DNA from: Flavimaricola sp. | GTDB lineage: Bacteria; Pseudomonadota; Alphaproteobacteria; Rhodobacterales; Rhodobacteraceae | Reading direction: 5' to 3' | Length of the DNA stretch: 64,000 nt | NCBI GenBank assembly: GCA_029255105.1 | Contig: JAQWWH010000085.1 | Span: forward strand, 1-64,000 | Shown here: in pieces, positions 39,463 to 55,029 of the stretch | Numbering within the stretch: the stretch's first letter is position 1 | Layout of the letters: each line of letters opens with the position of its first letter | Translations under genes and position numbers: made by a program | Notes under the pieces: generated by a model | What the model was told of the DNA's origin: nothing | Seen by the model: the letters and a program-made list of their open reading frames with translations, nothing else | The model's database searches: none

Positions 39463-39479
39463 CCGGATCGCTAGTCCGG
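39463..39479. terminator. Short stem-loop between convergent operons
   Basis: CCGGA-TCGCTAG-TCCGG lies in the 11-base gap between the racemase-family stop and the dppF stop and runs into the end of dppF. There is no T-run, so it is at best a weak bidirectional terminator. Confidence 0.3.
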
Positions 39480-40424
39480 AAAGAAGCAGGCAGCGCCGTG
39501 GGGCTGTCCTTCAAACTCTGGCACGGTTTCGCGGCACCGGTTCTGAGCCTTCCAGCAGCGGGGCGCAAAGGCGCAACCCTGCGGGATCGACAGCGGCGAA
39601 GGCAGCTCTCCGGTCAGTTTGATGCGCTCTTTCACGGCGGCTGGATCGGCCCTTGGCGTCGCAGACAGGAGCGCCTTGGTATAGGGGTGCCGGGGGGCGT
39701 TAAAGACCTCTTCCTTGGGGCCCTTTTCGACGGCCCGACCAAGGTACATGACGATGACATCGTCCGCGACGTGGCGCACGACGCTCAGGTCATGGCTGAT
39801 GAACAGGTAGGCCAGCTGCAAGCGGTCCTGAAGGTCCATCAGCAGGTTCAGGATCGCGCTTTGGATCGACAGGTCGAGGGCCGAGACGGGTTCGTCCAGC
39901 ACCAGCACCTTGGGGTCGAGCATCAGGGCGCGGGCCACCGCAATCCGCTGGCGCTGTCCGCCCGAGAACATGTGCGGATAGCGGTCGTTATGTTCGGGCC
40001 GTAGCCCGACCAGACCCAGCATGTCGCGGGCCTTTGCCTCGCGCTCGGCGCTGCTCATGCCGCGGCGGTTGATGACCAGCGGCTCTTGCAGGATCGTGCC
40101 GATCCGCTGGCGCGGGTTGAGCGATCCGTAGGGGTCCTGAAACACGATCTGGACGGACTGGCGCAGGTCGGCCCAGTCGCCGGGCAATACCGGCTTGCCA
40201 TCCAGCGTCAGGGTACCAGCTGTCGGCTCCTCGATCATGGCAACCATGCGGGCCAGCGTGGACTTGCCACATCCGCTTTCGCCCACTACGGCAAGCGTCT
40301 TGCCGGGGGCCAGCGCAAAATCCAGCCCGGCGACAGCCCGCAGCAGACGCGGTTTGCCAAAGAGGCCCCCGCCAACGGTATAGTGCCGCTGCAGGGCCGT
40401 CGCCTCGATCACATTGGCAGTCAT
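39471..40424 (-). CDS. Dipeptide/oligopeptide ABC transporter ATPase (DppF-like)
   Basis: A 317-residue ATPase with Walker A GESGCGKST near residue 48, signature FSGGQRQRIAVARAL near 155, Walker B VLVLDEPVSALD, switch His FISHDLSV, and the C-terminal oligopeptide extension with cysteines (CAFAPRCWKAQNRC) typical of DppD/DppF/OppD/OppF, which may hold an iron-sulfur cluster. The ATG at 40424 overlaps the DppD gene stop; the longer open frame starts inside that gene. It is the last gene of the peptide operon. Confidence 0.9.
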   Translation of the reverse strand: MTANVIEATALQRHYTVGGGLFGKPRLLRAVAGLDFALAPGKTLAVVGESGCGKSTLARMVAMIEEPTAGTLTLDGKPVLPGDWADLRQSVQIVFQDPYGSLNPRQRIGTILQEPLVINRRGMSSAEREAKARDMLGLVGLRPEHNDRYPHMFSGGQRQRIAVARALMLDPKVLVLDEPVSALDLSIQSAILNLLMDLQDRLQLAYLFISHDLSVVRHVADDVIVMYLGRAVEKGPKEEVFNAPRHPYTKALLSATPRADPAAVKERIKLTGELPSPLSIPQGCAFAPRCWKAQNRCRETVPEFEGQPHGAACFFPD

Positions 40425-41398
40425 GAGGCGATCCTTTCGCCCGTGTTCAGCGGATAGTGGCAGCGCGCCAGACCCAGCGCCGCATCTTGCGGATGGGGCG
40501 GTTTGGACTTGCACAGCGCATCGGCAAACTTGCAACGGGGTGAGAACAGGCACCCTTGGGGGCGGTCGAACTGACCGGGAACGACGCCCGGGATGGTGGG
40601 CAGGCGGCGTTCTGTCGCCCGCTCGGGCAGGGCATCCAGAAGGGCGGCAGTATAGGGGTGATGCGGGGTTTCAAAGAGCGGCATGACCGCCTGCTCCTCG
40701 ATCTTCTGACCGGCGTATTGGACGCTGACGCGTTCGGCCGTTTCGGCGACCACGCCCATGTCATGGGTGATCAGCACCAAACCCATTCCGGTTTCATTGC
40801 GCAGATCAGCCAGCAAATCGAGGATCTGGGCCTGGATCGTCACATCCAGCGCGGTTGTGGGTTCGTCCGCGATCAGCAGCTTGGGCTTGCAGGCAATCGC
40901 CATGGCGATCATCACCCGCTGGTTCATGCCGCCAGACAGCTGGTGGGGAAAGGCCGCCAGCCGCTTTTCCGGGTCCGGGATGCCGACCTGCTCGAACAGT
41001 TCAATCGCCCTCGCGTGGCGGGCCGCCCGGTCGAGGTGCAGGTGAAAGCGCAGCGCCTCCTTGATCTGCCAGCCCACAGGAAAGCAAGGGTTAAGAGAGG
41101 ACATCGGTTCCTGAAAGATCATCGCAAGATCATTGCCGATGATCTTGCGCTTGGCCCGGTTGTCCATCCGCAAAAGGTCGTGGCCGTCAAACGTCATCTC
41201 GTCGGCCGTGACACTGGCGGTCCAGGGCAAGAGGCCCATAAGGGCCAACATCGACACCGACTTGCCCGACCCGCTTTCGCCCACGATGGCCAGAATGTCG
41301 CCGGTGTCGACATCCTGATCCACCGCATCCACCGCCCGAAAGCAGCCCGAGGCGGTCAGGAAATCAACGCTGAGGTTGCGGATGCGCAGCAGGGTCAT
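40421..41398 (-). CDS. Dipeptide/oligopeptide ABC transporter ATPase (DppD-like)
   Basis: A 325-residue ATPase partner of DppF. Walker A GESGSGKSV at about 39-47, signature LSGGMNQRVMIAMAIA near 155, Walker B LLIADEPTTALD, His switch LITHDMGVV and the C-terminal cysteine cluster (CLFSPRCKFADALC). It starts 3 bases after the DppC stop and overlaps dppF by 4 bases. Confidence 0.9.
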   Translation of the reverse strand: MTLLRIRNLSVDFLTASGCFRAVDAVDQDVDTGDILAIVGESGSGKSVSMLALMGLLPWTASVTADEMTFDGHDLLRMDNRAKRKIIGNDLAMIFQEPMSSLNPCFPVGWQIKEALRFHLHLDRAARHARAIELFEQVGIPDPEKRLAAFPHQLSGGMNQRVMIAMAIACKPKLLIADEPTTALDVTIQAQILDLLADLRNETGMGLVLITHDMGVVAETAERVSVQYAGQKIEEQAVMPLFETPHHPYTAALLDALPERATERRLPTIPGVVPGQFDRPQGCLFSPRCKFADALCKSKPPHPQDAALGLARCHYPLNTGERIAS

Positions 41399-41401
41399 CT
41401 G

Positions 41402-42304
41402 TCAGCTCCGTTTCAGCTTGGGATCAAGGGCGTCGCGCAGGCCGTCGCCCATCAGGTTGATGGCCAGCACCGTGATCAGGATCGCGAGACCGGGAAAGGT
41501 GACGACCCACCAGGCCCGCAGGATGAACTCGCGCGCTTCGGCCAGCATCGTCCCCCACTCGGGCGTTGGCGGCTGCGCACCCATCCCCAGAAAGCCAAGG
41601 GCGGCGGCATCAAGGATCGCAGTTGAGAAGGACAGGGCCGCCTGAACGATGATGGGGGCCAGGCAGTTGGGCAGGACGGTCACGAACATCAACCGTCCGA
41701 TCCCTGCGCCCGCCACACGGGCCGAGGTGACGTAGTCTTTTTGCCGCTCGGACAGCACACTGGCGCGGGTCAGGCGGACGTAGTGGGGTTGCAGCACGAT
41801 GGCGATGGCGATCATCGCGTTGGTTAGCGACGGGCCAAGGATCGCGACAAGCACCAGCGCCAGCAAAAGCGACGGAAACGCCAGAATGATGTCCATGATC
41901 CGCATGATGATGCTGTCGACCCACTTGGGCGCAAACCCCGCGATCAGGCCGACCAGAATACCCCCGGTCGCCGCGATGGACACCACGACGATCCCCACAA
42001 AGAACGAGAACCGCGCCCCGATGATCAGCCGCGACAGCATGTCCCGGCCCAGAGGATCGGTGCCAAGAGGATAGGTCCAGTTGCCCCCCTCCTGCCAGAC
42101 TGGCGGTTGCAGGGTGGCATCGCGGAACTGGGTGGTTGCGTCATGCGGCGCGATCCAGGGACCAAAGAGGGCAAGGAAGGCAAAGATGCCAAAGATCCAA
42201 AGCCCGAAGACGGCCCCCCGGTTTTCGCGGAAGTAAAACCAGAACTCGCTCAGGCGGTTGGGCCTTTGGGTCGGGTCTGCGGTGGTGGCGGCTACCTCGG
42301 CCAT
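41402..42304 (-). CDS. Dipeptide/oligopeptide ABC transporter permease (DppC-like)
   Basis: A 300-residue inner-membrane permease: an N-terminal OppC_N segment with one helix (about 30-55; RENRGAVFGLWIFGIFAFL), then a five-helix BPD_transp_1 domain. YPLGTDPLGRDMLSRL near 80 is a signature of this subfamily, and VRLTRASVLSERQKDYVTSA marks the EAA-like loop. Start and DppB stop share one base (TGATG), so translation is coupled. Confidence 0.9.
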   Translation of the reverse strand: MAEVAATTADPTQRPNRLSEFWFYFRENRGAVFGLWIFGIFAFLALFGPWIAPHDATTQFRDATLQPPVWQEGGNWTYPLGTDPLGRDMLSRLIIGARFSFFVGIVVVSIAATGGILVGLIAGFAPKWVDSIIMRIMDIILAFPSLLLALVLVAILGPSLTNAMIAIAIVLQPHYVRLTRASVLSERQKDYVTSARVAGAGIGRLMFVTVLPNCLAPIIVQAALSFSTAILDAAALGFLGMGAQPPTPEWGTMLAEAREFILRAWWVVTFPGLAILITVLAINLMGDGLRDALDPKLKRS

Positions 42305-43311
42305 CAGCGTTTCCTGATCTTGGGATTGATGACACCGTACAGCATATCGACGGTCAGATTGACGATCATGACCATGACCGCAATCAGCAAGAGACCACCC
42401 TGAACCACCGGGTAGTCACGGCGGAAAATACTGTCGACCATCCATTTGCCGATGCCCGGCCAGCTAAAGATCGTCTCGGTCAGGATTGCGCCAGCTAACA
42501 GAGTGCCCACTGACAGGCCAATGACGGTGATGACCGGGATCAGCGCGTTGCGCAGGGCGTGAATGCCATTGATCCGGCCCGGCGACATGCCCTTGGCGCG
42601 GGCGGTGCGGATGTAATCCTCGCCCAGCACCTCAAGCATGGCAGAGCGGGTCTGGCGGGCGATGACCGCCAGCGGGATGGTGCCCAGCACGATCGTCGGC
42701 AGGATCAGGTGCCGGACCGCCGAGGTGAACGCCCCGCTTTGGCCCGATGCGATCGAGTCGATGAGCATGAACCCGGTGGGATTGGGGAAATAGTAGATCA
42801 GGTCGATCCGCCCCGAAACGGGCGTCCATTGCAGGTTTCCCGAGAAGACAATGATCAGCAAAAGCGCCCACCAGAAGATCGGCATCGAGTAGCCGATCAG
42901 GGCTGTCGACATCAAGGCGCGGTCAAAGAATTTGCCCCGGTTCACCGCCGCGATGACCCCGGCAGGCAGGCCAAGGGCCACGGCAAAGATCATGGCGCAG
43001 ATCGAAAGCTCGAGCGTCGCGGGAAATAGCGAAAAGAATTCATCCCAGACCGGTCGCTTGGTCACGAAAGAGGTTCCAAGATCGCCTTGCAGCACCCCGG
43101 TAAAATACTCCCAGAACTGCGCGATGATCGGCCTGTCGAACCCGAACTGTTCGCTCAGCTCTGCATAGCGCTCTTCCGTCAGGCCCCGTTCGCCCGCCAT
43201 CACGATGATCGGATCGCCCGGCAGGACCCGGATAAAGGCGAAAGAGATCAGCGTGACCCCGATGAAGGTCGGGACAAAAGTCAGCAGGCGGCTCAGGACG
43301 TAATTCAGCAT
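42304..43311 (-). CDS. Dipeptide/oligopeptide ABC transporter permease (DppB-like)
   Basis: A 335-residue permease with six hydrophobic helices, the first at the extreme N-terminus (LLTFVPTFIGVTLISFAFI). The family signature RVLPGDPIIVMAGERGLTEE follows at about 28-47, and the EAA loop lies in DYIRTARAKGMSPGRINGIH near 225. It starts 7 bases inside the end of the M24 peptidase gene (ATGCTGA), so the peptidase and transporter are made together. Confidence 0.9.
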   Translation of the reverse strand: MLNYVLSRLLTFVPTFIGVTLISFAFIRVLPGDPIIVMAGERGLTEERYAELSEQFGFDRPIIAQFWEYFTGVLQGDLGTSFVTKRPVWDEFFSLFPATLELSICAMIFAVALGLPAGVIAAVNRGKFFDRALMSTALIGYSMPIFWWALLLIIVFSGNLQWTPVSGRIDLIYYFPNPTGFMLIDSIASGQSGAFTSAVRHLILPTIVLGTIPLAVIARQTRSAMLEVLGEDYIRTARAKGMSPGRINGIHALRNALIPVITVIGLSVGTLLAGAILTETIFSWPGIGKWMVDSIFRRDYPVVQGGLLLIAVMVMIVNLTVDMLYGVINPKIRKR

Positions 43312-44423
43312 TTCAGTACCATGAGGTCCTTGGGAAAGCGGGTCAGCGAGGTGCCCCCGGTTTCGGTGATCAGCACGTCATCCTCGATCCGGACCCCGAA
43401 ATTGTCGATCTCGTAGAGGCCGGGTTCATTGGTGTAGACCGTGCCTGCAGGCAGGATCATGTGATTGCCCCGCATGATGTAGGGGGCCTCGTGCACGTCG
43501 CGACCAAGGCCGTGGCCGGTCTTGGTGCGGATCCGGTCGGCAAAGGGCGATGCCTCAAGCACGCCGGTCACCGCATCGTCGATGTCGTGGGCCGTGACGC
43601 CGGCCCGGGTCACTTCAAACCCCGTCAGGTTGGCCCGCAGGACGGTGTCATAGACCTCCTGCGCCTCGTCCGAGGCGTGGCCCAGAAACACGGTGCGGGT
43701 GATGTCGGCCGCAAAGCCATCCTTGCGGGCCCCGAAATCCAGCAAGAGCGCATCGCCCGCCTTGACCGCATAGCCTGCCCGCGCCTTGGCGTGCGGCCGG
43801 GCCGATCCGTCGCCAGCGGCCACGATGGGGTGGAATGACTGATCCTCGGCCCCTTCGGCGAACAGGGCCTGAATAAGGGCCTGTTCGATCTGCTTTTCGG
43901 TCTGGCCAAGGCGCACACCGTCAAGGGTTCGGGCCAATGCCCGTTCCGAGATGTCGATCGCCTCTTGCAAGGCCCCGATGTCCTTGGGCGTCTTGATCAT
44001 GCGCAGGGCCGAAATTTCGATCTCGGCATCAACGATCCGCAGGTCAGGCTGGGCACGCATCATGGCGTGATGAACAAAGACACGCATCACCTGCCCTTCA
44101 ACGGCAAGTGACCGGATCGACAGATGGGCCATCAGGGCAGAAAAGGCGGCGTCATAGCCGGTCTGGTCGCGCCAGTCGAAGACGGCGCCTTCAAAGCCGA
44201 CAAGGTCCCAGCTGCGCAGTTCGAGGTTGGGCACAAGGGCGGCGGGCGGTCCGTTAGCGGGGATGACCAGCATGAAGGGGCGTTCATGGCTCATGAACAC
44301 ATGCTCAACGGCGCGGGTGAAATTCGGGCCAGGCACAAGGGCAACAGCATCGACACCAAGGTCGGAGGCCACTGTGGCATAGGCGGCGAGACGGTCGGTC
44401 AGCGATAAGGCCAAGGTCAGCAC
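43305..44423 (-). CDS. M24-family metallopeptidase within the peptide-transport operon
   Basis: A 372-residue Xaa-Pro-peptidase-like enzyme. Metal ligands: Asp in LLLDFGARK, Asp in AADITRTVF, His in GHGLGRDVHEAPY, Glu in YTNEPGLYEI and Glu in VRIEDDVLIT. It sits between the binding-protein gene and dppB, which strongly suggests it acts on the imported peptide in the cytoplasm, for example a proline- or other imino-linked dipeptide. The start is uncertain: the frame begins with GTG at 44423 and no good ribosome binding site is seen; a TTG a few codons downstream is possible. It is a distant paralogue of the M24 gene at 37544. Confidence 0.83.
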   Translation of the reverse strand: MLTLALSLTDRLAAYATVASDLGVDAVALVPGPNFTRAVEHVFMSHERPFMLVIPANGPPAALVPNLELRSWDLVGFEGAVFDWRDQTGYDAAFSALMAHLSIRSLAVEGQVMRVFVHHAMMRAQPDLRIVDAEIEISALRMIKTPKDIGALQEAIDISERALARTLDGVRLGQTEKQIEQALIQALFAEGAEDQSFHPIVAAGDGSARPHAKARAGYAVKAGDALLLDFGARKDGFAADITRTVFLGHASDEAQEVYDTVLRANLTGFEVTRAGVTAHDIDDAVTGVLEASPFADRIRTKTGHGLGRDVHEAPYIMRGNHMILPAGTVYTNEPGLYEIDNFGVRIEDDVLITETGGTSLTRFPKDLMVLKC

Positions 44424-44454
44424 CAGACTGTCAGAGGGGAATTAGGGTAGGATC

Positions 44455-44479
44455 GGGACGGCGCATGGCGCGCCGCCCC
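44455..44479 (-). other. Stem-loop after the peptide-binding-protein gene
   Basis: GGGACGGCGC pairs with GCGCCGCCCC around a 5-base loop (one mismatch) in the 71-base gap between the dppA-like stop and the M24 gene. As at 9905 and 29253, it is right behind a binding-protein gene and lacks a long T-run on the minus strand. Confidence 0.55.
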
Positions 44480-44494
44480 GGGACTTTTGGTCGA

Positions 44495-46087
44495 TCAGTT
44501 GGACAGACCGACGGCGTTGAAGATGTGGCCACCCAGCGGGTGAACAACGTAGTTCTCAACTTCGGGACGCATGGTCATGTAGACGACCGAGTGGGCGATG
44601 GTGGCCCATGGCGCCTGCTCTTTGAAGATAAGCTGCGCCTCTTCGTACAGCGGCTGACGCTCTGCCTGTGTCGGCAGCACCTTGGCAGCCTGGATCAGGT
44701 CTTCGAACGGCTGGTAGCACCACTGTGCCCGGTTCGAGTTCTCGCGACCGTCACAGCCCAGCAGAACAGCCAGGAAGTTGTCCGGATCACCATTGTCACC
44801 GGTCCAGCCCAGAAGGATGGCACCGTCGCGGTCAAGTTCGCGCGACCGGGACAGGTACTCGCCCCATTCGTAGGACACGATTTCCACCGTCACACCGATC
44901 TGGGCAAAGTCTTCCTGCATCAGCTCGGCCATACGGCGGGCGTTGGGGTTGTAGGGACGCTGAACCGGCATGGCCCAGATTTTCATGTTCAGGTCGGTGA
45001 CACCTTCTGCCTCCAGCATGGCGCGGGCGGCTTCGGGATCGTAGGGGTCGTCGACAGTGGCGGTGTTGTAGGACCACATGGTCGGCGGGATCGGGTTGAC
45101 CGCGATCTGGCCGGAACCCTGGAAGACCACGTCGATGATGGCCTGCTTGTCGATGGCCATGTTCAGGGCACGACGGACGGCCGGATTGTCATAGGGCGGC
45201 TGCGTCGTGTTGTAGGCCAGGTAGCCGACGTTCAGACCCTCTTGCTCCATGACGACAACGTCATCCAAGGCTTTCATCGCTTCGACATCGGCAGGGTTGG
45301 GATAGGCCATGACATGGCATTCGCCCGCCTGAACCTTCTGGTAGCGGACGCTGGCATCGGGTGTGATCGCAAAGATCAGAGACTCAACGCGGGCAGGCTC
45401 GCCCCAATAGGCATCGTTGCGCAGATACCGGATGACGGCATCCTTCTGATAGGCCTGGAAGCTGAAGGGACCGGTGCCGATCGGCGCCTGGTTCAGCATC
45501 TCGGGCGTGCCAGCCGCCATCATCGCATCGGCATATTCAGCCGAAACGATCGAGGCAAAGTCCATCGCCATGTTGGCGATAAAGGGGGCCTCGGGCCGGG
45601 TCAGGTTGAATACGACGGTATAGTCGTCGACCTTTTCGATGCTCTCGATCAGATCGGGCATCGACATGCCGCCAAAGTATTCCCAGGTGCCGCCGGAGAC
45701 GGTGAAATAGGGGTTGGCTTCGTTGCCCTGACGGTCGAACGAGAAGATCACGTCATCGGCGTTGAAGTCGCGCGTTGGCGTGAACATCTCGTTGCTATGG
45801 AAGGACGCGCCCTGACGCAGGTTGAACGTCACGGTCATCCCGTCTTCGGACACATCCCAGCTTTCGGCCAGTCCGGGGATAACTTCGGTCGTGCCGACCC
45901 GGAATTCTGTCAACCGGTTGTAAATCGGGTGGCTGGACGCATCAAAGGTCGTGCCAGCGGTATACAGCGCGGGGTCGAACCCTTCGGGCGATCCTTCCGA
46001 GCAATAGACCAGGGCCTGTGCCGAGGCCGAGGACGCCCCGATCGCTGCGAGCAGGAAACCTGCCGCAAGCTTTTGTTTCAGTGACAT
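44495..46087 (-). CDS. Peptide ABC transporter substrate-binding protein (DppA-like)
   Basis: A 530-residue extracytoplasmic binding protein of family SBP_bac_5. A signal peptide covers the first 24 residues or so (MSLKQKLAAGFLLAAIGAS then SASA-QA). Mature sequence starts LVYCSEGSPEGFDPALYT, the usual DppA-type opening with Cys and a Glu-Gly-Ser, and contains SLIFAITPDASVRYQKVQAG and LGWTGDNGDPDNF typical of dipeptide and haem/peptide binders. The ATG at 46087 is preceded by GGGAGACAATAATT; the open frame continues upstream without conserved sequence. It is the first gene of the operon. Confidence 0.92.
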   Translation of the reverse strand: MSLKQKLAAGFLLAAIGASSASAQALVYCSEGSPEGFDPALYTAGTTFDASSHPIYNRLTEFRVGTTEVIPGLAESWDVSEDGMTVTFNLRQGASFHSNEMFTPTRDFNADDVIFSFDRQGNEANPYFTVSGGTWEYFGGMSMPDLIESIEKVDDYTVVFNLTRPEAPFIANMAMDFASIVSAEYADAMMAAGTPEMLNQAPIGTGPFSFQAYQKDAVIRYLRNDAYWGEPARVESLIFAITPDASVRYQKVQAGECHVMAYPNPADVEAMKALDDVVVMEQEGLNVGYLAYNTTQPPYDNPAVRRALNMAIDKQAIIDVVFQGSGQIAVNPIPPTMWSYNTATVDDPYDPEAARAMLEAEGVTDLNMKIWAMPVQRPYNPNARRMAELMQEDFAQIGVTVEIVSYEWGEYLSRSRELDRDGAILLGWTGDNGDPDNFLAVLLGCDGRENSNRAQWCYQPFEDLIQAAKVLPTQAERQPLYEEAQLIFKEQAPWATIAHSVVYMTMRPEVENYVVHPLGGHIFNAVGLSN

Positions 46088-46399
46088 AATTATTGTCTCC
46101 CTTGGGTTTTTTCTTGGTCGTCGAAGAACTGACCCCCAGTTGGCCTGGAGTGCCGCATTTATACAGGCTGCCAATCAGGTCCGACCAAACCTGATCATCA
46201 GAACATATGGACATTACGTCCTTGCCGACGCGACTCGCGGACAATCCGGGTGCGCTCGTCAATGTCCTCGCATGGGAACACGAAAGATGCGTGCTGCCAA
46301 GCAAAAGGAGCGAAAATTTGACAAGGATGCCCCGACGTCCGCCATCGGGGGTCGCTCATTGCAGAGCGGACGTGAGGCATCAAACCCCATTCGGGGCCG
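46088..46399. other. Promoter region of the peptide operon
   Basis: This 312-base gap separates the dppA-like start from the end of the RuBisCO-like gene. It holds the peptide-operon promoter, with TATAAA on the minus strand near 46150, the palindrome at 46174-46195 over the likely -35 region, and an inverted repeat ACGTCCGC / GCGGACGT (46335-46342 with 46366-46373). No small gene is convincing. Confidence 0.45.
46174..46195. promoter_or_regulatory. Palindrome in the peptide-operon promoter
   Basis: ATCAGGT-N8-ACCTGAT is a perfect inverted repeat with 7-bp arms, about 90 bases upstream of the dppA-like start and next to a TATAAA element. It is a good operator candidate, but no regulator gene is adjacent. 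Confidence 0.45.
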
Positions 46400-47659
46400 T
46401 TACAGGACCTCTTTGAAATGCGCCAAAGCTTGCGCCAGTTCCGGCTGTTCGCGGGCGTGATCGCGGATCGGGACGCCAATTCGCGCGGCCTCTGCCGCTT
46501 GCCGCAAAGCGGTGATACCGGCGGCGGGACCGCTAGGATGGCTCATGATGCCGCCGCCTGCGCAGAACAGGAAATCCTGATTGCCAAGGACCTCTGCCGA
46601 CGGCCCAACCTGCCAGACCGTCTGACCAGAGGAAAAGACGGGAAGGGCAATCGCCCCCTCCGACGCACCGGCAATCGGGGCCTGCACGGACCGGGCCGCA
46701 TTGGTGACGACCGCATCGGTTTCTGTGAACTTGTTTCCCAGACCGTTGACATGCAAATGATCCGCCCCCGCCAGCCGCCAGATCTTTTGCATTGCGGGAA
46801 AGGCGATCCCGATATGGGGCGAGCGGGACATAAGCCCCCAGCCGTTGCGATGCGCATGGATCGGAAGCGGCGACCGGTCGCGCAGCCAGCGCAGGCCGAC
46901 AAGGCCGACCGAGTAAAGCGAGGCCATCGCGCAGGTCGCCCCCAATCGTTCGAGCATATCCAGATGACGCGCCATCGCATCAAGGTCGTCCGTCATGTTG
47001 AAGGCATACATCACCTTGCGCCCCGACCGATCCGCATGCCGGTTCAGGACATCCATGACCTTTGTCGCCCGCTCGTCCAACGGACAGCCGGGGCCGTTTG
47101 CCTGAAGCTCATCATCCTTGATGAAATCGATGCCCGCCCCGGCCAGCGTATCGACAAGGGACGCCGTTTCGGTCGCGGTCAGGCCGATGCTGGGCTTGAT
47201 GATGGTGCCGATCATCGGCCCCTTGGGCACGCCCATTAGGGCGCGGGTTCCCCCGATGCCGAATTGCGGTCCGGGCAGGGCGGCGGCAAAGCTGGGGGGA
47301 AGGGTCACGTCCAGCAACCGGATGGCCGAAAACTCGGCCAGTTCAAACAGGTTGCCGGCAATCGTGGCCATCAGGTTTGGCAAGGACGGGCCGATGTTGT
47401 CCATCGGCCAGCTGATCGTGACCTCGCCCCGCTCGTAAACCTCTCCCTTTGCGCGCGATGGCAAGGACGGGGTCGGGCTGCTGCCGGTGGGCCGGATCGC
47501 CTCGATCCGGGCGCCAGAACGGGCGCGCAGGTCGTCGGTCTCGGCGGCGAGCCGGACAAAGGTGCCGGTCGACTGCTCGCCCGCCGCGACGGCTGCGGCG
47601 CGGTCCAGCCCGACCGGGCTTTCCATGTCATAGGTGGCGGTAAACCGTTCGGTTGTCAT
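46400..47659 (-). CDS. oiaX: RuBisCO-like protein, 3-oxo-isoapionate-4-phosphate decarboxylase type
   Basis: A 419-residue form IV RuBisCO-like protein. It is assigned to the decarboxylase OiaX of D-apionate catabolism because the kinase, lactonase, oxidoisomerase and dehydrogenase of that pathway flank it. The barrel keeps K155 (IIKPSIGL, equal to RuBisCO K175), the carbamate/metal set K181-D183-E184 (FIKDDELQ, equal to K201-D203-E204) and an active-site His in HAHRNGW. The RuBisCO K177 position is Ser, and loop 6 is remodelled (VNGLGNKFTE), so CO2 fixation on RuBP is not expected. The predicted product is L-erythrulose 1-phosphate plus CO2. It overlaps the kinase gene by 4 bases. Confidence 0.82.
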   Translation of the reverse strand: MTTERFTATYDMESPVGLDRAAAVAAGEQSTGTFVRLAAETDDLRARSGARIEAIRPTGSSPTPSLPSRAKGEVYERGEVTISWPMDNIGPSLPNLMATIAGNLFELAEFSAIRLLDVTLPPSFAAALPGPQFGIGGTRALMGVPKGPMIGTIIKPSIGLTATETASLVDTLAGAGIDFIKDDELQANGPGCPLDERATKVMDVLNRHADRSGRKVMYAFNMTDDLDAMARHLDMLERLGATCAMASLYSVGLVGLRWLRDRSPLPIHAHRNGWGLMSRSPHIGIAFPAMQKIWRLAGADHLHVNGLGNKFTETDAVVTNAARSVQAPIAGASEGAIALPVFSSGQTVWQVGPSAEVLGNQDFLFCAGGGIMSHPSGPAAGITALRQAAEAARIGVPIRDHAREQPELAQALAHFKEVL

Positions 47660-49038
47660 CGCAGACCTCCTCCGTCCCTGATCCAGCCGAAATAGTCATG
47701 GCTGCCCATCTGTCCGCCCTTGAGGGCAATCTCCAACCCGTCAGCGGCACCGCTGGCCTGTGCCGAACAGATCGCCGCCCCGGGGATCGTGGGGACAAGG
47801 GCCGACAGGGCAAAGATGCCCAACTCTCCGGTCACATGTCCCGATGTGTCACCCCCCGCCACCACCGCCCGGCGCAGCCCGGCCGTTGTGACCAGACGCA
47901 GCAGGATCCGGCCCAGCGCCCCGCCGATAGCCTCGTTCGCCTGCTCCATATCCGCAGCCTGCGCCCGAAGGGCCGCGACACGGGGGTCATCCGGGCCCTT
48001 GGCACTGTGCACCAGTGGGATGCGGCCCTCTGACAAGGCCAACAGGGAAGTCTTTACCGCGATATCCTCGGCCCGCGCCAGATCATCGGGAGAGCGGCAA
48101 ACGGCAAGGGTGTCAAAGGCGATGCTGGCAAACCCATCCCCCTCAGCCCAGTCGATCTGATCGCGGGTGATGAGCGAGACAGAGCCTGCAACAACCGCCA
48201 TGCTTTCGGTGCGCCCAAGCGAGGCCGGCGTCTGAACCGGTGGGATCTGACCAACCACCGCAAGGTGGGCCACAAGGGCATATTCAACCCCCTGAGAGCC
48301 GACGACAAACCGGCTTGCCTCCCGCCGTTCCCACAACAACTGGCCAACGACCGGTTCGTCCCGGGCGGTCATCATGTCCATCGTCCAGCCGCCCCATTGG
48401 CCTGTCAGGCGGGCGGCGGCGGCCTCCGGGTCTGCCTGCATCTCAAGATCAAGGCAGTGGAACGGCATGTCCGTCTGCCGGGCCAGATGTCGGGCCACGT
48501 CCGCCTCGTCCATAGGGGTGACAGGGTGGCGCGCCATGACGGGATGCCGGTCAAGGCGAAAGACCCCATCGGGCGTACCGGCAAACAGGTGCCCAAAGGC
48601 CTGAAAGCGGCGCATGGCAGGCGCAGCCAGCACCACCGGAATGGCGGACCGGCCGAACATTGCAGCCCCGATGTCCATCGCCCGGCCGATCGACCCGATA
48701 TGAGGGGCGGAATCTAGGGTTGAGCATGTCTTGTAGTGGATCAGCCCTGCCCCGGTTTCGGCCAAAGTCGCGAAAAGGCTGGGCAAGTTTTCGTCCATCC
48801 AGTCAGGCGATTTCGTCCGGGCGAGCGTGGCGATCCCCACCCCTTTCACATCCGGGTAGCGGGCAAGCTGCTCGGCCGTTGGTGGCCCCAGGAAGAGGAT
48901 CGAGGGCAACCCGCCGAAAGTCAGCACCTCCATCACCGCCGCCGCACCGGTGACATCGTCGCCCAGCCAGCCGATCAGCGGCGCCTCAGCACCCTTGGCT
49001 TTGACCTTATCCACCGTATACCCTTTTCCCAGCGTCAT
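47656..49038 (-). CDS. oiaK: Four-carbon acid sugar kinase family (3-oxo-isoapionate kinase)
   Basis: A 460-residue DUF1537-type kinase. The N-terminal substrate domain has GWLGDDVTGAAAVMEVL near residue 23; the C-terminal nucleotide-binding domain shows VVAGGDTSGHVTGELG near 385 and ALKGGQMGSHDYFG near 440. DUF1537 kinases phosphorylate threonate, erythronate or 3-oxo acids; with the RuBisCO-like gene directly downstream, 3-oxo-isoapionate is the best-supported substrate. The ATG at 49038 is used, but GTG eight codons later has a better ribosome binding site (AAAAGGG) and may be the true start. It is divergent from the GntR gene with only 31 bases between starts. Confidence 0.82.
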   Translation of the reverse strand: MTLGKGYTVDKVKAKGAEAPLIGWLGDDVTGAAAVMEVLTFGGLPSILFLGPPTAEQLARYPDVKGVGIATLARTKSPDWMDENLPSLFATLAETGAGLIHYKTCSTLDSAPHIGSIGRAMDIGAAMFGRSAIPVVLAAPAMRRFQAFGHLFAGTPDGVFRLDRHPVMARHPVTPMDEADVARHLARQTDMPFHCLDLEMQADPEAAAARLTGQWGGWTMDMMTARDEPVVGQLLWERREASRFVVGSQGVEYALVAHLAVVGQIPPVQTPASLGRTESMAVVAGSVSLITRDQIDWAEGDGFASIAFDTLAVCRSPDDLARAEDIAVKTSLLALSEGRIPLVHSAKGPDDPRVAALRAQAADMEQANEAIGGALGRILLRLVTTAGLRRAVVAGGDTSGHVTGELGIFALSALVPTIPGAAICSAQASGAADGLEIALKGGQMGSHDYFGWIRDGGGLR

Positions 49039-49069
49039 TTACGCCATTGCCATGCTGAGGAGGTTCTTC

Positions 49070-49786
49070 ATGTCCACCCATCCGGACCCCGACCGCATTG
49101 TCCGGCGCAAGCTGTCGGACGAGGTGTTCGACCGGTTGAAGAGCATGATCCTTGACGGCACCCTTGTCCCCGGTGATCCGGTCCCGTCCGAGCGGGACCT
49201 GATGACCCGATTCAGCGTCGGCAGACCAGCCGTGCGAGAAGCGTTGCAGACCCTTCACAACCTTGGCCTGATCACCGTATCCCACGGCGAGCGTAGCCGG
49301 GTGAACGAGATCAGCCCGACCGTCGCGATCCAGCAGCTTGATGCCCTTGCCCCGTTCCTTCTGTCCGCCGCGCCCGAAAACCTCGAGCATCTGAAATCCG
49401 CCCGCAAGATGTTTGAGGTCGGCATGGCCAAGCAGGCGGCAGAGCGGCACCGGCCCGAAGACATCGCCGCACTTGAGGCCCTTCTGGAGACCCAATCGGG
49501 GCTTTTGGACCGGCCCAAGGACTTTATCCGCACCGATATGGCCTTTCACGCCCGCATCGTTGAGATCGGCGGCAATCCGATTGTCGCCGCGATGGCGGAC
49601 GCCATGTTGAAATGGCTGTTTCACTACCACACAGCGCTTTTGCATTGGTCGGGGAACGAAGGCACCACCCTCAAGGAACATCGTCAGATTATCGACGCGA
49701 TTGCCGCCTCTGACCCAGAGGCGGCGGGACAGGTGATGACGATGCATCTGGACCGGTCGTCTGAAAAGTACCGCTTTCATCGCTAG
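49070..49786 (+). CDS. GntR-family regulator, FadR/FCD subfamily, of the apiose genes
   Basis: A 238-residue regulator with winged helix-turn-helix (about 10-75; PSERDLMTRFSVGRPAVREAL) and FCD ligand domain (about 90-230), where RKMFEVGMAKQAAERH and the MAFHARIVEIGGN segment bear the Asp and His ligands for a metal-bound acid. The ATG at 49070 is set by GAGGAGG seven bases upstream; the frame is open to 48950 but inside the divergent kinase gene. It lies between the two halves of the D-apiose gene set, divergent from oiaK-oiaX and convergent with apnL (stop codons share CTAG), so it most likely senses a pathway acid. Confidence 0.88.
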   Translation: MSTHPDPDRIVRRKLSDEVFDRLKSMILDGTLVPGDPVPSERDLMTRFSVGRPAVREALQTLHNLGLITVSHGERSRVNEISPTVAIQQLDALAPFLLSAAPENLEHLKSARKMFEVGMAKQAAERHRPEDIAALEALLETQSGLLDRPKDFIRTDMAFHARIVEIGGNPIVAAMADAMLKWLFHYHTALLHWSGNEGTTLKEHRQIIDAIAASDPEAAGQVMTMHLDRSSEKYRFHR

Positions 49787-51564
49787 GCCAGATCCCGTTC
49801 GACGATGGCGAAGGGGGCAAGGGAAACGGTCGTTCCCCCAACCTCGAGCGATATCGCCTCGGCTGTGAGATTGGCGAGCCAGATGTTATCGGCGAGGGCC
49901 AAGGCGGCAACACGCTCAGGGTCGCTGGTCTGGCAGTGCCGCAAGGGCTGTCCGGCCAGTTGGGCAAGCCTGACAAGCAGATCGGCAAGCGGCGTGGACC
50001 TTTTCCCTGCCATCAGCCCACGCGGGCCGAACAGGGCAGAAGGCGTCCAGGACGCCACCCCGAACGGGGCGATAGCGGCGAGATAGCCAAGGGCAAAGGC
50101 CGCACCAAAGGCGGCGAAATGCCGTGGATCGGTCTCGGCCATGCAAAGGCGCTTGCCCTCTGGATTGGGCATGGTTCGCGAGCCGTAAGGGTTCTGCCGC
50201 ATCGGGATTGAGGACAGCCCCAGCCGCAGGGGCCGCCCTTCGACGATCGCTTCGGCGGATTGCAGGATCCAGGGCAAGGCCGTCAGCGTCTGCATCACCG
50301 ACCGGTCATCAGCGGCATGGACAATCGGGTTGGTCCCACAGGTCACGTAGTCAAGCGCCGCAACGGGGGGCCGTTTGCGATTGAGTTCGGTGAAATAAGA
50401 CAGCATCCCACCGCCCCGTTCAATCCAGGGGAAAGCCCGCGCTACGGCAGCATGCACCTCCTCCAAGGGCGGACAGGCGGGCCAGGTGCTGCCGGGCGGT
50501 GTCGATTGGCGGTCAACAGAGGGGCAGACAAGAATCGAAGCCAGGTTGAGGCCAGCCGCATTGATCTGCCGGGCCAGCCCCCCGAACTCGGCGTCCAGAT
50601 CGCCATCACAGCGGGCGGCGTATTCCAGATCGACGACCAGTCCCGTTGCCGCCTGAAGGGCTGCAAAGGCCGCCAGATCATCCTCGACCGGCCCCTCGGC
50701 TGCACCGGGATCAAGATGGGCCCAGATCCGGTTCGGGGCGAGGTGCTGCAAGGGTCCGGGCTCGTGCAGCGCCTGACGGGCTTCGGCAGCCGTCAGGACG
50801 AGGCTCAGCTCTGGCAGCTTCTTAAGGGAAATATCGCCCAATTCGACCGCCAGCGCAGTTTCGCCCTGACCCTCAGGTGTCCCCGAAAACGACAGGGCCA
50901 CCGCCTGCTCAATCCCCTGCCCGGCTGGCAGGACATAAGGCCAGGGCAGCGCCAAAGGGCGGACGTAGGTCTTGAAAGAGGCGTCGGACCAGTTGCGCTG
51001 ATCCTCCATCTCGAAGGTGTCGCCCTCAAACGCGCACCTGACGGTCAGGCCATTCTGATTATGGGTCAGCGACCTGATGTCCATGAAGGGTTGTTTGGGG
51101 TCGATGCGGGCCGGAAAGGCGCTGTCCTCTACCCGGCCGTCCGTATGCTCGACCCGGACCGGCAGGCCCGAGACCTGAACCGGATGCAGAACCGTAAAGC
51201 CGGCCCGGTTCGTTTCAAAATCCGCATCGGGCACCGCGACGCCGCGAAAGACAAGACTGGAGGGTGTTGCCTGCACCGACATGGCCGCCCGCAGAACCGG
51301 GCCGTTGCCATGGTAGATGGCCTGCCATTCGATTGTCAGGGCGGCTGCACTCTCAACGATGGTTTCGCCTTCGATGACGGGGGTCAGGGTGCCCCAATCC
51401 GCGTCGCGCACCGGAAAGGTGATGGCCCGGATCAGTTCGGTTCCGGCAAACCGGATGTCCGAAAGCCCCCCCTCCATCAAACAGAACGACAGTTGGCCCC
51501 GCCGGAAGGACCGCGCTTCGCCCGGCGGTTCGGTCGTTCCGAAAAGGGACAGAGCGTCTGTCAT
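49783..51564 (-). CDS. apnL: D-apionate lactonase-like protein
   Basis: A 593-residue protein without signal peptide and without a common hydrolase signature. It shows beta-rich sequence in the N-terminal third and a probable alpha/beta barrel in the second half (from about residue 230). Length and gene neighbourhood match ApnL, which opens the lactone formed when ApsD oxidises D-apiose, giving D-apionate. I recognise the family mainly from context, so the call is moderate. The start is the ATG at 51564, sharing one base with the apsD stop (TGATG); a GTG one codon upstream is possible. Confidence 0.68.
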   Translation of the reverse strand: MTDALSLFGTTEPPGEARSFRRGQLSFCLMEGGLSDIRFAGTELIRAITFPVRDADWGTLTPVIEGETIVESAAALTIEWQAIYHGNGPVLRAAMSVQATPSSLVFRGVAVPDADFETNRAGFTVLHPVQVSGLPVRVEHTDGRVEDSAFPARIDPKQPFMDIRSLTHNQNGLTVRCAFEGDTFEMEDQRNWSDASFKTYVRPLALPWPYVLPAGQGIEQAVALSFSGTPEGQGETALAVELGDISLKKLPELSLVLTAAEARQALHEPGPLQHLAPNRIWAHLDPGAAEGPVEDDLAAFAALQAATGLVVDLEYAARCDGDLDAEFGGLARQINAAGLNLASILVCPSVDRQSTPPGSTWPACPPLEEVHAAVARAFPWIERGGGMLSYFTELNRKRPPVAALDYVTCGTNPIVHAADDRSVMQTLTALPWILQSAEAIVEGRPLRLGLSSIPMRQNPYGSRTMPNPEGKRLCMAETDPRHFAAFGAAFALGYLAAIAPFGVASWTPSALFGPRGLMAGKRSTPLADLLVRLAQLAGQPLRHCQTSDPERVAALALADNIWLANLTAEAISLEVGGTTVSLAPFAIVERDLA

Positions 51565-52586
51565 CACAGAACGCTCAGATCAATCGTCGATCCCGTCTCG
51601 GCGGACAGATAGGCGGCCTCGACCAGCTTGAGCGTTTCAAAATTGTCCCGGCCCGAGGTTTCGACGTTTTGCCCCGACAGGACGCTGTCAACAAAGTGCT
51701 GTTCGATCAGCGCCACGCTTTCCTGAATGTTGTGCCAGGGACGTTCCGCCCATTCCAGAAGCGGCGGGGACACGTCGCGGCGAACCTCTCCTGCGCTATT
51801 CTGGATCAGCAACTGGTAGCCGGTATCAAGGCGCAGAAACCCGGTCGATCCATCAATCTCAAGCACCGTTTCGGGGAATGTGACCGGGCGGCGCGGGCTG
51901 GCGTAGGAACAGTCAACGACGCTGGTCATGCCAGAGTGATGGGTCAGCAGCATGGTGGCCACATCCTCGCCCGCGATCCGGGGATTGATCCGGGCGGTGG
52001 TGGCCGCGATCCGCTCGACATCTCCCATCAGCGCGCGGGCGACATCAAGAATATGGATGCCAAGGTCCTGAATGATGAACCGTGGATCCGTCGCCAGATA
52101 GGGTTGGTTGGCATAGACGTCATAGTCGGATCGAAAACTGGCGCGACAAAAGAAAGGTGTCCCGATAGCGCCGCCCCGGACCGCCTCGATGACGGCGCGG
52201 ACCGGGGACTGCCAGCGAAAGTTCTCGTGCACCATGAAGGTCTTGCCCGCCCTTTCGACCGCCGCGATCATGGCGCGGGCATCCTCAAGCGTGTCGGCAA
52301 GCGGTTTCTGGCAGATGACATGCAGGCCATTGGTGGCGGCAAGCTCCACCAGCGACCTGTGCGACGGGACGGTCGTGGCAATATCGACAAAGTCGAGGTC
52401 CTGTTCGGCCAGCATGCGGGCGGCATCGGAATAGAGGGCCGAGATGCCAAAGGCATCGCCGATGGCCGCCAGCCGCGCGGGATCACGGTCGCAGATGGCC
52501 ACGATGTCGGCCCCCTGCGCCATGTTCCAGCCATGCATGTGGTTCACGGCGAAAAAGCCGCAACCGATCAATCCGCCCTTCAGCAT
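51564..52586 (-). CDS. apsD: D-apiose dehydrogenase-like Gfo/Idh/MocA protein
   Basis: A 340-residue dehydrogenase with nucleotide loop GLIGCGFFAVNH at 5-16, catalytic lysine in CQKPLADT near 95 and the Asp/His motif DLGIHILD near 175. The family makes lactones from sugars with NAD+. Coupled to the ApnL gene and next to ApnO, it is assigned as ApsD, which oxidises D-apiose to D-apionolactone. It begins 12 bases after the apnO stop. A role in oxidising another branched or five-carbon sugar cannot be excluded. Confidence 0.78.
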   Translation of the reverse strand: MLKGGLIGCGFFAVNHMHGWNMAQGADIVAICDRDPARLAAIGDAFGISALYSDAARMLAEQDLDFVDIATTVPSHRSLVELAATNGLHVICQKPLADTLEDARAMIAAVERAGKTFMVHENFRWQSPVRAVIEAVRGGAIGTPFFCRASFRSDYDVYANQPYLATDPRFIIQDLGIHILDVARALMGDVERIAATTARINPRIAGEDVATMLLTHHSGMTSVVDCSYASPRRPVTFPETVLEIDGSTGFLRLDTGYQLLIQNSAGEVRRDVSPPLLEWAERPWHNIQESVALIEQHFVDSVLSGQNVETSGRDNFETLKLVEAAYLSAETGSTIDLSVL

Positions 52587-52598
52587 CGTGTCTGGTCC

Positions 52599-53426
52599 TT
52601 AGGTGATGCGCTGGATGCTTGCTGCGATCTCATCAGGTTCGAACACGCGTTTCCAGTCATCCCGCATCAGGACCGGTTTGCCGAACTTGATGGCAAGGTT
52701 GCAGGCGTCCGAAAACACGCCGTTGATATGGCCAAAGGTGACGGCGGCCAGAATGTTCATGTGACCCAGCAGGAAATCCCGCGCGGCCTCTTCCGGCACG
52801 CCCCGGCTGACAACCTCGTCCATCGCCTCCTTCATCACGGCAAGCAGCGACGCGACGACGGTTTCGGACAGCCCCGGCTCGAGCAGGGCCATCTGTTCGA
52901 CGGTCACGCGGTGCGATCGGACGACGGGGGCGTAGATTGCCTTGCCGACCTTCTCGCCAAGGTCATAGTGCTCTTCTGGCCCTTGCATCAGGGCGTTCAC
53001 GATCCCCTGCTTGGCCGCGATCCCGCCAAAGTGATCGTTGCGACCAGCCTCGGTGTCTTCGTCGTTGAAGATCGGGGGATGGCAAGGGTGGGTGACAAAG
53101 TAGGTGACATCGGCCCGTTCGGGCAGGTGCCCTGCAAAGGGGCCCGCCGCATCAAGGCAAATGACCATGGCGCCTGATTCCACCTTGTCGATAATGGCCG
53201 CGGCCACCGCCCGGATCGCCGTGTCGGGAACCGCCAGAAGGACCACTTCAGCCCCCTTCAAGGCATCTTCGGCCGAGACGCAGTCGACCCCGATCGCCTC
53301 TTTCAGACGGGCCTGCCCGGCTGGCGAAATCTCGACGTGGGCCACGTCGAAATCGGTTTCCGTCAGGTTGCGAGAGCAGCGCACGCCCATTTTGCCCCCG
53401 GCACCGAACACCGCTATTTTAGTCAT
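52599..53426 (-). CDS. apnO: D-apionate oxidoisomerase-like dehydrogenase
   Basis: A 275-residue NAD-dependent dehydrogenase with Rossmann loop GAGGKMGVRC near residue 9, a THPCHPPIFN segment near 112 and a helical C-terminal domain of the phosphogluconate-dehydrogenase-like type, ending with VFSDACNLAIKFGKPVL. In the known pathway ApnO oxidises D-apionate and shifts the carbon skeleton to 3-oxo-isoapionate, the substrate of OiaK. It is first in its operon; the start ATG has AGGAGCGACC upstream, and a strong palindrome lies 20-46 bases before it. The assignment rests on family plus neighbours. Confidence 0.78.
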   Translation of the reverse strand: MTKIAVFGAGGKMGVRCSRNLTETDFDVAHVEISPAGQARLKEAIGVDCVSAEDALKGAEVVLLAVPDTAIRAVAAAIIDKVESGAMVICLDAAGPFAGHLPERADVTYFVTHPCHPPIFNDEDTEAGRNDHFGGIAAKQGIVNALMQGPEEHYDLGEKVGKAIYAPVVRSHRVTVEQMALLEPGLSETVVASLLAVMKEAMDEVVSRGVPEEAARDFLLGHMNILAAVTFGHINGVFSDACNLAIKFGKPVLMRDDWKRVFEPDEIAASIQRIT

Positions 53427-53445: not shown

Positions 53446-53472
53446 CAACTGGTATGATGACATCATAAGTTG
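53446..53472. promoter_or_regulatory. Palindromic operator candidate upstream of apnO
   Basis: TATGATG-A-CATCATA at 53453-53467 is a perfect 15-bp palindrome around one central base, flanked by CAACT (53446-53450) and AGTTG (53468-53472). Short TGATGNCATCA-type palindromes are usual targets of FadR/FCD regulators, so the GntR protein encoded at 49070 is the likely binder. It sits directly in front of apnO, where it would overlap the promoter. Confidence 0.6.
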
Positions 53473-53499: not shown

Positions 53500-55029
53500 T
53501 CAGACTGCAATGCCTCTCTTCCAAAGGCCTGCGATATGATCGCCAACCCTAAGCGCCTGGGCCGCCACGGTCAGCGCCGGGTTGAGCGCTGCGGAAGAGG
53601 GGAAGAAACCAGCATCCACGACATACAGGTTGGGGTGGTCATGCGCCCGGCAAAGCGGAGTGAGCGCCGACAGGCCCGGGTCTGTCCCCATCCGAACCGT
53701 CCCGCATTGATGCGAGGGCGCCTCGATCCCAAAACTGTGGCGCAGCACAAGGGGAAAGCCGATCTGTCGAAGCAGCGTTCGCACATGACGCACGAACCGG
53801 TCATGCCCCGCGGTGCCGCCGGGCCGGTAATCCACCTCTACCCCTCCATTCTCCATCAACCGCACCCGGCTGTCGCGGTTTGGCAGGTCCTCGGACATGG
53901 TGAGAAAGTCGACGCTGTGCCGCCCCAACCAATTCGCCGCCCATTTCGGTGCAACAGGATAGGCCGAGCGGATCATCGGCCCCCCGATATTGCCCAACAT
54001 CTGGATATTCCCCCGCGCCGACCCGTCCCCCGGTATCCCGCGGTAGAAGTCGTTGATGGACAAGGTCTTGGGAAACCGGGTGTTATTGGGGCGCAGAGGC
54101 CGGACCCCCATCAGCCCGGTCAGGTGATGGTTCATCAGATACCGCCCCACCACCCCGGACCGGTTGGCCAGCCCGTTCGGGTGCGTCTCGCTGGCAGATC
54201 GCAGCAGGATGAGGGCCGAGTTGATGGCCCCCGCACTCAGGACAAACAACGGGGCCTCGATCCGGATGACCTCACCACCACGCTGGATTTCCGCGGCAAC
54301 GATCCGCAGGCCGTCAGGGTCCGAGATCAGGCGCATGACCTGCGCCCCGGTCCATAGGGTAACATCGGGGTGGCGCAACAAGGGCCGCAGAATGCGGGTA
54401 TCGGCATCGCCCTTGGCATCAAAGCGGCAGGCAAAGGCATCACAGGTCCCACAGCGCTGACACCGCCCGCCCGGGCCATAATCGACGGCCGACGGCATAT
54501 GAAACGGCCGCAATCCCGCCCGGCCAAGCCTTTCGGCCATATCGGCGATCACCGGCTCGTGCGGGATCGGGGCATGGGCAAAGGGCGCGGCGCGTGGCGG
54601 TTCTGTCGGGTCCTGCCCCGCCTGCCCCCTGACGCCAAACAGCCGCTCGGCTGCGTCATAGTGGGCCTCAAGGTCGCTATAAGTGACCGGCCAAGCCGGT
54701 GAGGTCCCTTCGTCCGTCGACTGCTGAGCAAAGTCGTCCGAGCGAAAGCGGAACATGGCCGTGCCATAGAACTTGGTATGTCCGCCAACAAAGTAATACT
54801 GCCCCGGCCGATAGGCGCGACCGGTCGAATCCTGCCATTCGTCCTGCGTGCGATAGCGGTTCTGAAGGAAGACGGCGTCGGGATCGGCGTTTTGCGCCTC
54901 GCGCGGAAGGGCCTCGCCCCGCTCAAGGATCAGCACCTTCGCCCCGGTGCCGACAAGCCGGTGGGCGACCGAGGCCCCTCCGACGCCGGACCCGATGATC
55001 ACGACATCCGGCTTGATCGTTGTTGTCAT
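53500..55029 (-). CDS. GMC-family FAD-dependent oxidoreductase
   Basis: A 509-residue flavoprotein. The FAD-binding loop is VVIIGSGVGGASVAHRL near residue 10, followed by the second dinucleotide motif around VGGHTKFYGTAMFR. The C-terminal GMC signature has HQCGTVRMG with the active-site His and VDAGFFPSSAALNPALT. A cysteine group CQRCGTCDAFAC near 190 is typical of a subset of these enzymes. No signal peptide is evident. GMC enzymes oxidise alcohols and sugars to aldehydes, ketones or lactones. It ends 73 bases before apnO on the same strand, with the palindrome between them, so it may or may not belong to the apiose regulon. Confidence 0.88.
   Translation of the reverse strand: MTTTIKPDVVIIGSGVGGASVAHRLVGTGAKVLILERGEALPREAQNADPDAVFLQNRYRTQDEWQDSTGRAYRPGQYYFVGGHTKFYGTAMFRFRSDDFAQQSTDEGTSPAWPVTYSDLEAHYDAAERLFGVRGQAGQDPTEPPRAAPFAHAPIPHEPVIADMAERLGRAGLRPFHMPSAVDYGPGGRCQRCGTCDAFACRFDAKGDADTRILRPLLRHPDVTLWTGAQVMRLISDPDGLRIVAAEIQRGGEVIRIEAPLFVLSAGAINSALILLRSASETHPNGLANRSGVVGRYLMNHHLTGLMGVRPLRPNNTRFPKTLSINDFYRGIPGDGSARGNIQMLGNIGGPMIRSAYPVAPKWAANWLGRHSVDFLTMSEDLPNRDSRVRLMENGGVEVDYRPGGTAGHDRFVRHVRTLLRQIGFPLVLRHSFGIEAPSHQCGTVRMGTDPGLSALTPLCRAHDHPNLYVVDAGFFPSSAALNPALTVAAQALRVGDHIAGLWKRGIAV

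Follow-up and report, generated by a model that had tools for sequence, protein, structure and literature searches.

A block of six genes at positions 46400–53426 was analysed within a 64,000-nucleotide stretch of Flavimaricola sp. DNA (contig JAQWWH010000085.1, hereafter the window). The block encodes relatives of ApsD, ApnL, ApnO and OiaK, a GntR regulator and a RuBisCO-like protein (RLP). Judged from sequence, a D-apiose catabolic regulon is the best explanation of the block, and its RLP is probably a transcarboxylase/hydrolase of the OiaT type that would yield 3-phosphoglycerate and glycolate. The initial annotation had named the RLP OiaX, a decarboxylase forming L-erythrulose 1-phosphate, because OiaX is its nearest named model. 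This assignment was not upheld, as the protein branches apart from OiaX, has RuBisCO residues that are lost in OiaX and is encoded in a genome lacking both of the isomerase families concerned.

Clade and active site of the RuBisCO-like protein

The window RLP was scored against the OiaX equivalog model, where it reached 406 bits at a cut-off of 700. Class-wide sampling for OiaX returned no protein above this cut-off and was replaced by a reference set drawn from Rhizobiaceae. Scores in the 247 Rhizobiaceae genomes were bimodal, with true OiaX proteins at 730–797 bits in 43 genomes and all other listed RLPs at 454 bits or less. The window RLP is roughly 42% identical to OiaX. In a tree of 63 RLPs, OiaX formed one clade (support 100/99) with the window RLP outside of it, paired with an RLP from Primorskyibacter (L002; 100/97) inside what we term clade B. 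The union of clade B with a further group, clade C, was weakly resolved (57/37). Placement in a different functional clade had been named in advance as the observation that would overturn the OiaX assignment; a different clade is what was found, while a different function is predicted. At equal ApnO identity (70–72%), RLPs from OiaX loci were 40–44% identical to the window RLP and those of clade B 55–61%. The upstream enzymes are therefore common to both kinds of locus, with the last enzyme belonging to another branch.

Upon alignment with RuBisCO the window RLP was observed to keep E60, N123, K175, K201, D203, E204, H294, H327, K334 and S379 (spinach numbering), which correspond to E28, N103, K155, K181, D183, E184, H270, H303, K310 and S343 of the window protein. 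The residues of carboxylation and hydrolysis are retained, as would be expected of OiaT. Four of these positions separate the two kinds of RLP. E60, N123, H327 and S379 were present in 93 of 93 aligned clade-B sequences, in all seven clade-C sequences and in the window RLP, whereas all 39 OiaX sequences carried D, G, Q and G/C in their place. In RuBisCO, residues at positions 60, 123, 327 and 379 contribute to the binding of the metal, phosphate and carboxylated intermediate. Plausibly, the four residues are dispensable for a decarboxylase and needed by an enzyme that both carboxylates and hydrolyses.

The ApnO-associated RLP clade spans Alpha-, Beta- and Gammaproteobacteria and Acidobacteriota. 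We tentatively suggest that clade-B RLPs, one relative of which is plasmid-encoded in a haloarchaeon, constitute a widespread heterotroph branch in which a full RuBisCO-like cycle of enediolate carboxylation and C–C hydrolysis may operate in sugar catabolism, set apart from OiaX by E60D, N123G, H327Q and S379G/C. The plasmid in question, from Haloarcula (L087), carries an RLP, a kinase and an ApnO homologue together, which suggests an apionate-like pathway in archaea. Two clade-B RLP loci (L007, L011) were found in the single genome of Yoonia sediminilitoris. RLPs of clade C (L088, L194–L197, L210, L213) are 45–49% identical and lie in clusters of TRAP or other transporter, glyoxalase-fold, RLP and kinase genes. 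No ApnO was found in the seven clade-C loci examined, and their RLPs are possibly of the hamamelose type.

Isomerases and the predicted reaction

Carter et al. are said to have reported in 2018 that L-erythrulose 1-phosphate from OiaX needs LerI, of the TIM family, and DerI, of the RpiB family. The initial annotation had seen no erythrulose-phosphate isomerase in the block, which holds genome-wide, and had placed the finishing isomerases elsewhere in the genome, where they were not found. The lerI/derI-type search of the window's genome (92.6% complete) returned no RpiB and one TIM-family gene, whose 280 bits fall among TpiA scores. Both isomerase families were present in 42 of 43 OiaX genomes versus 3 of 37 clade-B genomes (p = 6e-18). 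RpiB occurred in all 43 OiaX genomes and in 17 of 55 OiaX-free Rhizobiaceae (Fisher p = 3e-14), so that OiaX genomes stand apart even within their own family; among clade-B genomes it occurred in 14 of 37. At least two TIM genes were counted in 42 of 43 OiaX genomes versus 4 of 37 in clade B, and in several OiaX genomes (e.g. G471, G547 and G450) the extra TIM and RpiB genes are adjacent, a few kb from oiaX. Absence of the isomerase pair, as would be expected of OiaT, is the rule in clade-B genomes, and the window's genome lacks the pair as well.

In the proposed pathway D-apiose would be converted to D-apionolactone by ApsD, to D-apionate by ApnL, to 3-oxo-isoapionate by ApnO and to 3-oxo-isoapionate 4-phosphate by OiaK. 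The RLP would then take the carboxylate off this phosphate to give an enediolate, re-add CO2 at the adjacent carbon and hydrolyse the C–C bond, releasing 3-phosphoglycerate and glycolate, which are the products of OiaT. With such products erythrulose-phosphate isomerases would be unneeded, and the puzzle of the missing finishing steps would be gone. Glycolate would be passed to GlcDEF and 3-phosphoglycerate to glycolysis. Adjacent glcD, glcE and glcF genes, which together make up glycolate oxidase, were located in the genome, glcE and glcF being named by position and motifs. Two RLPs acting on 3-oxo-isoapionate 4-phosphate are known, a transcarboxylase/hydrolase of Xanthobacter autotrophicus and a decarboxylase of Agrobacterium K84 (PMC6302742). 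In 61 genomes from the Ancylobacter family (Xanthobacteraceae) no OiaX-like RLP was found, and those RLPs more than 40% identical to that of the window belonged to clade B or C.

Several points weigh against an OiaT-type assignment. The clade of OiaT is deduced from family relatives, and Xanthobacter OiaT could be a clade-C protein, which would leave clade B without an assigned function. An assembly of this completeness may by chance lack an isomerase gene, and glcDEF genes are common and therefore weak evidence. The genomes compared are related, so that the p-values above overstate independence, although the contrast itself is large. Finally, the window's ApnL-like protein scores below the curated ApnL cut-off.

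It is unlikely that the RLP is instead a diverged OiaX that still makes L-erythrulose 1-phosphate, with isomerases either non-homologous to LerI and DerI or lost in assembly gaps. OiaX loci do share the upstream genes and the putative operator described below, and the few clade-B genomes having both isomerase families would fit such an enzyme, as would the choice of OiaX as nearest named model. The score against that very model is however far under its cut-off, the tree sets the protein apart from OiaX, the four active-site positions are unlike those of every OiaX, and the isomerases are lacking both here and in most clade-B genomes.

The gene block, its regulator and uptake

All six genes were confirmed as initially annotated, with apnO-apsD-apnL and oiaK-RLP flanking a GntR gene of opposite strand (Table 1). 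On the minus strand the order is apnO, apsD, apnL, oiaK and the RLP gene, with the plus-strand gntR between apnL and oiaK. Reading frames overlap by 4 bp at apsD/apnL and at oiaK/RLP, an operon-like arrangement. The ApnL-like protein is 594 amino acids long with a GTG start, and the true start of oiaK may fall a few codons downstream of 49038.

Table 1. Features of the block and its putative operator in the window
Feature	Positions	Strand	Basis
RuBisCO-like protein (RLP), clade B, probable OiaT-type transcarboxylase/hydrolase, not OiaX	46400..47659	-	PF00016 197 bits; OiaX model 406/700 bits; tree; active-site residues; isomerase co-occurrence
OiaK-like DUF1537 kinase, probable 3-oxo-isoapionate 4-kinase	47656..49038	-	NCBIfam OiaK 406/700 bits, best model by far; adjoins RLP in most of 80 loci
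GntR/FCD (NanR-like) cluster regulator	about 49070..49786	+	PF00392, PF07729, NanR subfamily 286.6 bits (cut-off 260); in 65/80 loci
ApnL-like protein, probable D-apionolactonase	49783..51567	-	NCBIfam ApnL 678 bits (cut-off 750), sole match; 43–47% identity to OiaX-locus ApnL
ApsD-like Gfo/Idh/MocA dehydrogenase, probable D-apiose 1-dehydrogenase	51564..52586	-	PF01408, PF22725; 57–68% identity to OiaX-locus homologue
ApnO, probable D-apionate oxidoisomerase	52599..53426	-	PF16896 (PGDH_C) 240 bits; PDB 5t57 400 bits; 70–76% identity to OiaX-locus homologue
Putative GntR operator AACTGGTATGATGA, part of palindrome TATGATGACATCATA (53453–53467)	53447..53460	+	about 20 bp upstream of apnO; exact copy

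For comparison, 80 loci with related RLPs were taken from other genomes. ApnO was found in 73 of these, the kinase in 77 and GntR in 65, while ApsD and ApnL were both present in 16; the recurrence of ApnO and kinase puts the gene set far beyond chance. The arrangement around the regulator recurs in relatives, among them a locus in a Marivita metagenome-assembled genome (L003) with a gene order identical to that of the window. The ApnL-like protein of L003 also misses the ApnL cut-off, at 680 bits, with those of other loci at 818–1040. Kinases of genuine OiaX loci, at 442–478 bits, fall below the OiaK cut-off just as the window kinase does. As a PGDH_C protein highly similar to the ApnO of known apiose loci, the window ApnO is a probable D-apionate oxidoisomerase. 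Catabolism of apiose or apionate via ApsD, ApnL, ApnO and OiaK, as initially annotated, is supported, and the Rhodobacteraceae strain LCG007, reported with the same five annotated enzymes, grows on D-apiose (PMC11747546). Apiose is present in seagrass walls (PMC8815203), and a seagrass or duckweed niche for the bacterium is plausible.

The 14-base AACTGGTATGATGA occurs in the window as an exact copy that is its sole site at two mismatches or fewer. At the same stringency, 61 of the 80 loci have a site no more than 300 bp from the start of a pathway gene. At one mismatch or fewer, 1.52 Mb held 70 sites versus 2 in shuffled sequence. Promoters of the apionate pathway carry AACTGGTATGATGA in many genera (L002–L086, L199–L203), those of OiaX loci included, and some clade-B loci have a site near the TRAP binding-protein gene. 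AACTGGTATGATGA is presumably bound by the GntR protein, which would control apnO-apsD-apnL via the site at 53447. In the oiaK/gntR gap of the window, where relatives have an operator, none was seen at four mismatches or fewer among the best matches.

The initial annotation had noted the absence of an apiose importer from the block, which was confirmed, and a search of the genome likewise ended without identification. Nothing encoded in the genome was closely homologous to the known type of apiose ABC binding protein. An apiose importer of the ribose type at another place in the genome was rejected, the best match being 32% identical and no operator lying near those candidate binding proteins that were examined. 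A Dpp-type peptide ABC transporter and an M24 peptidase (39471–46174) immediately follow the RLP gene on the same strand. This system was rejected as an apiose importer, as it is not a conserved neighbour of related loci and has a binding protein that matches DppA. A GMC dehydrogenase just upstream of apnO (53500–55029) resembles flavin adenine dinucleotide glucose/fructose dehydrogenases (PDB 6a2u, 7w2j). It had no close homologue in the 80 loci and was left out of the pathway because the operator separates it from apnO. Six clade-B loci (L026, L027, L028, L031, L034 and L037) have TRAP transporters and no apsD or apnL, and in most of them the operator is found at the gene for the TRAP binding protein; these look like D-apionate uptake systems. 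AACTGGTATGATGA could help to locate the missing importers. In OiaX loci of Shinella and Rhizobium (L083, L084, L120, L121) a gene of the dihydroxyacetone-kinase family lies beside the pathway genes.

The failure to find an importer would also fit a cluster that serves a related sugar or sugar acid, branched or linear, rather than apiose itself, such as external D-apionate only or another aldose. The ApnL score below cut-off and the lack of nearby ApsD and ApnL at most clade-B loci (both in 16 of 80) point the same way. We nevertheless regard this as distinctly improbable, given the identity of ApnO and ApsD to OiaX-locus proteins (Table 1), the same operator at both kinds of locus and the growth of strain LCG007 on D-apiose. 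Very improbable is an RLP that acts as an oxygenase, decarboxylating its substrate and cleaving the enediolate with O2 to glycolate and 2-phosphoglycolate. In its favour, RuBisCO residues are retained and an RLP oxygenase is reported for the branched-sugar pathway of D-hamamelose in Ochrobactrum anthropi, which ends in 3-phosphoglycerate and glycolate (cited in PMC8914248 and PMC10176493). Against it, the gene set here is apionate-specific, with ApnO at 73 of 80 loci.

Implications and comparison with known systems

By the present evidence the large ApnO-associated RLP clade should not bear the OiaX name, which changes the end products predicted for coastal bacteria that use apiose. The two RLP types can be told apart by a residue signature together with a simple genomic marker, namely whether the isomerase pair is present. 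If clade-B RLPs do perform a full RuBisCO-like cycle, residue swaps at four positions could test what separates a decarboxylase from a carboxylase in the superfamily. The clade also offers a test bed for the gain or loss of carboxylation by a RuBisCO-type active site.

The OiaT route of Xanthobacter autotrophicus (Carter et al. 2018, cited in PMC6302742) shares with the window the predicted substrate and the upstream enzymes, and the RLPs of that family, judged from Xanthobacteraceae relatives, are of the residue-keeping type. The Ancylobacter relatives differ in gene order, with TRAP genes present and apnL further away. The OiaX route of Agrobacterium K84 and rhizobia has ApsD, ApnL, ApnO, OiaK, the GntR regulator and the operator in common with the window. 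It differs in an RLP of 40–44% identity with the four active-site residues changed, in the isomerase families of its genomes and in the ribose-type ABC importer usual at its loci.

In the cluster of strain LCG007 (PMC11747546), six consecutive locus tags include the same five annotated enzymes, and growth on D-apiose was shown. Its RLP is annotated as a decarboxylase, and we would question this name if the protein belongs to clade B. The closest solved structure to the window RLP is PDB 3nwr (407 bits), an RLP that has the same four diagnostic residues and differs at the K177 position, where it carries N, as in clade C, and the window RLP carries S.

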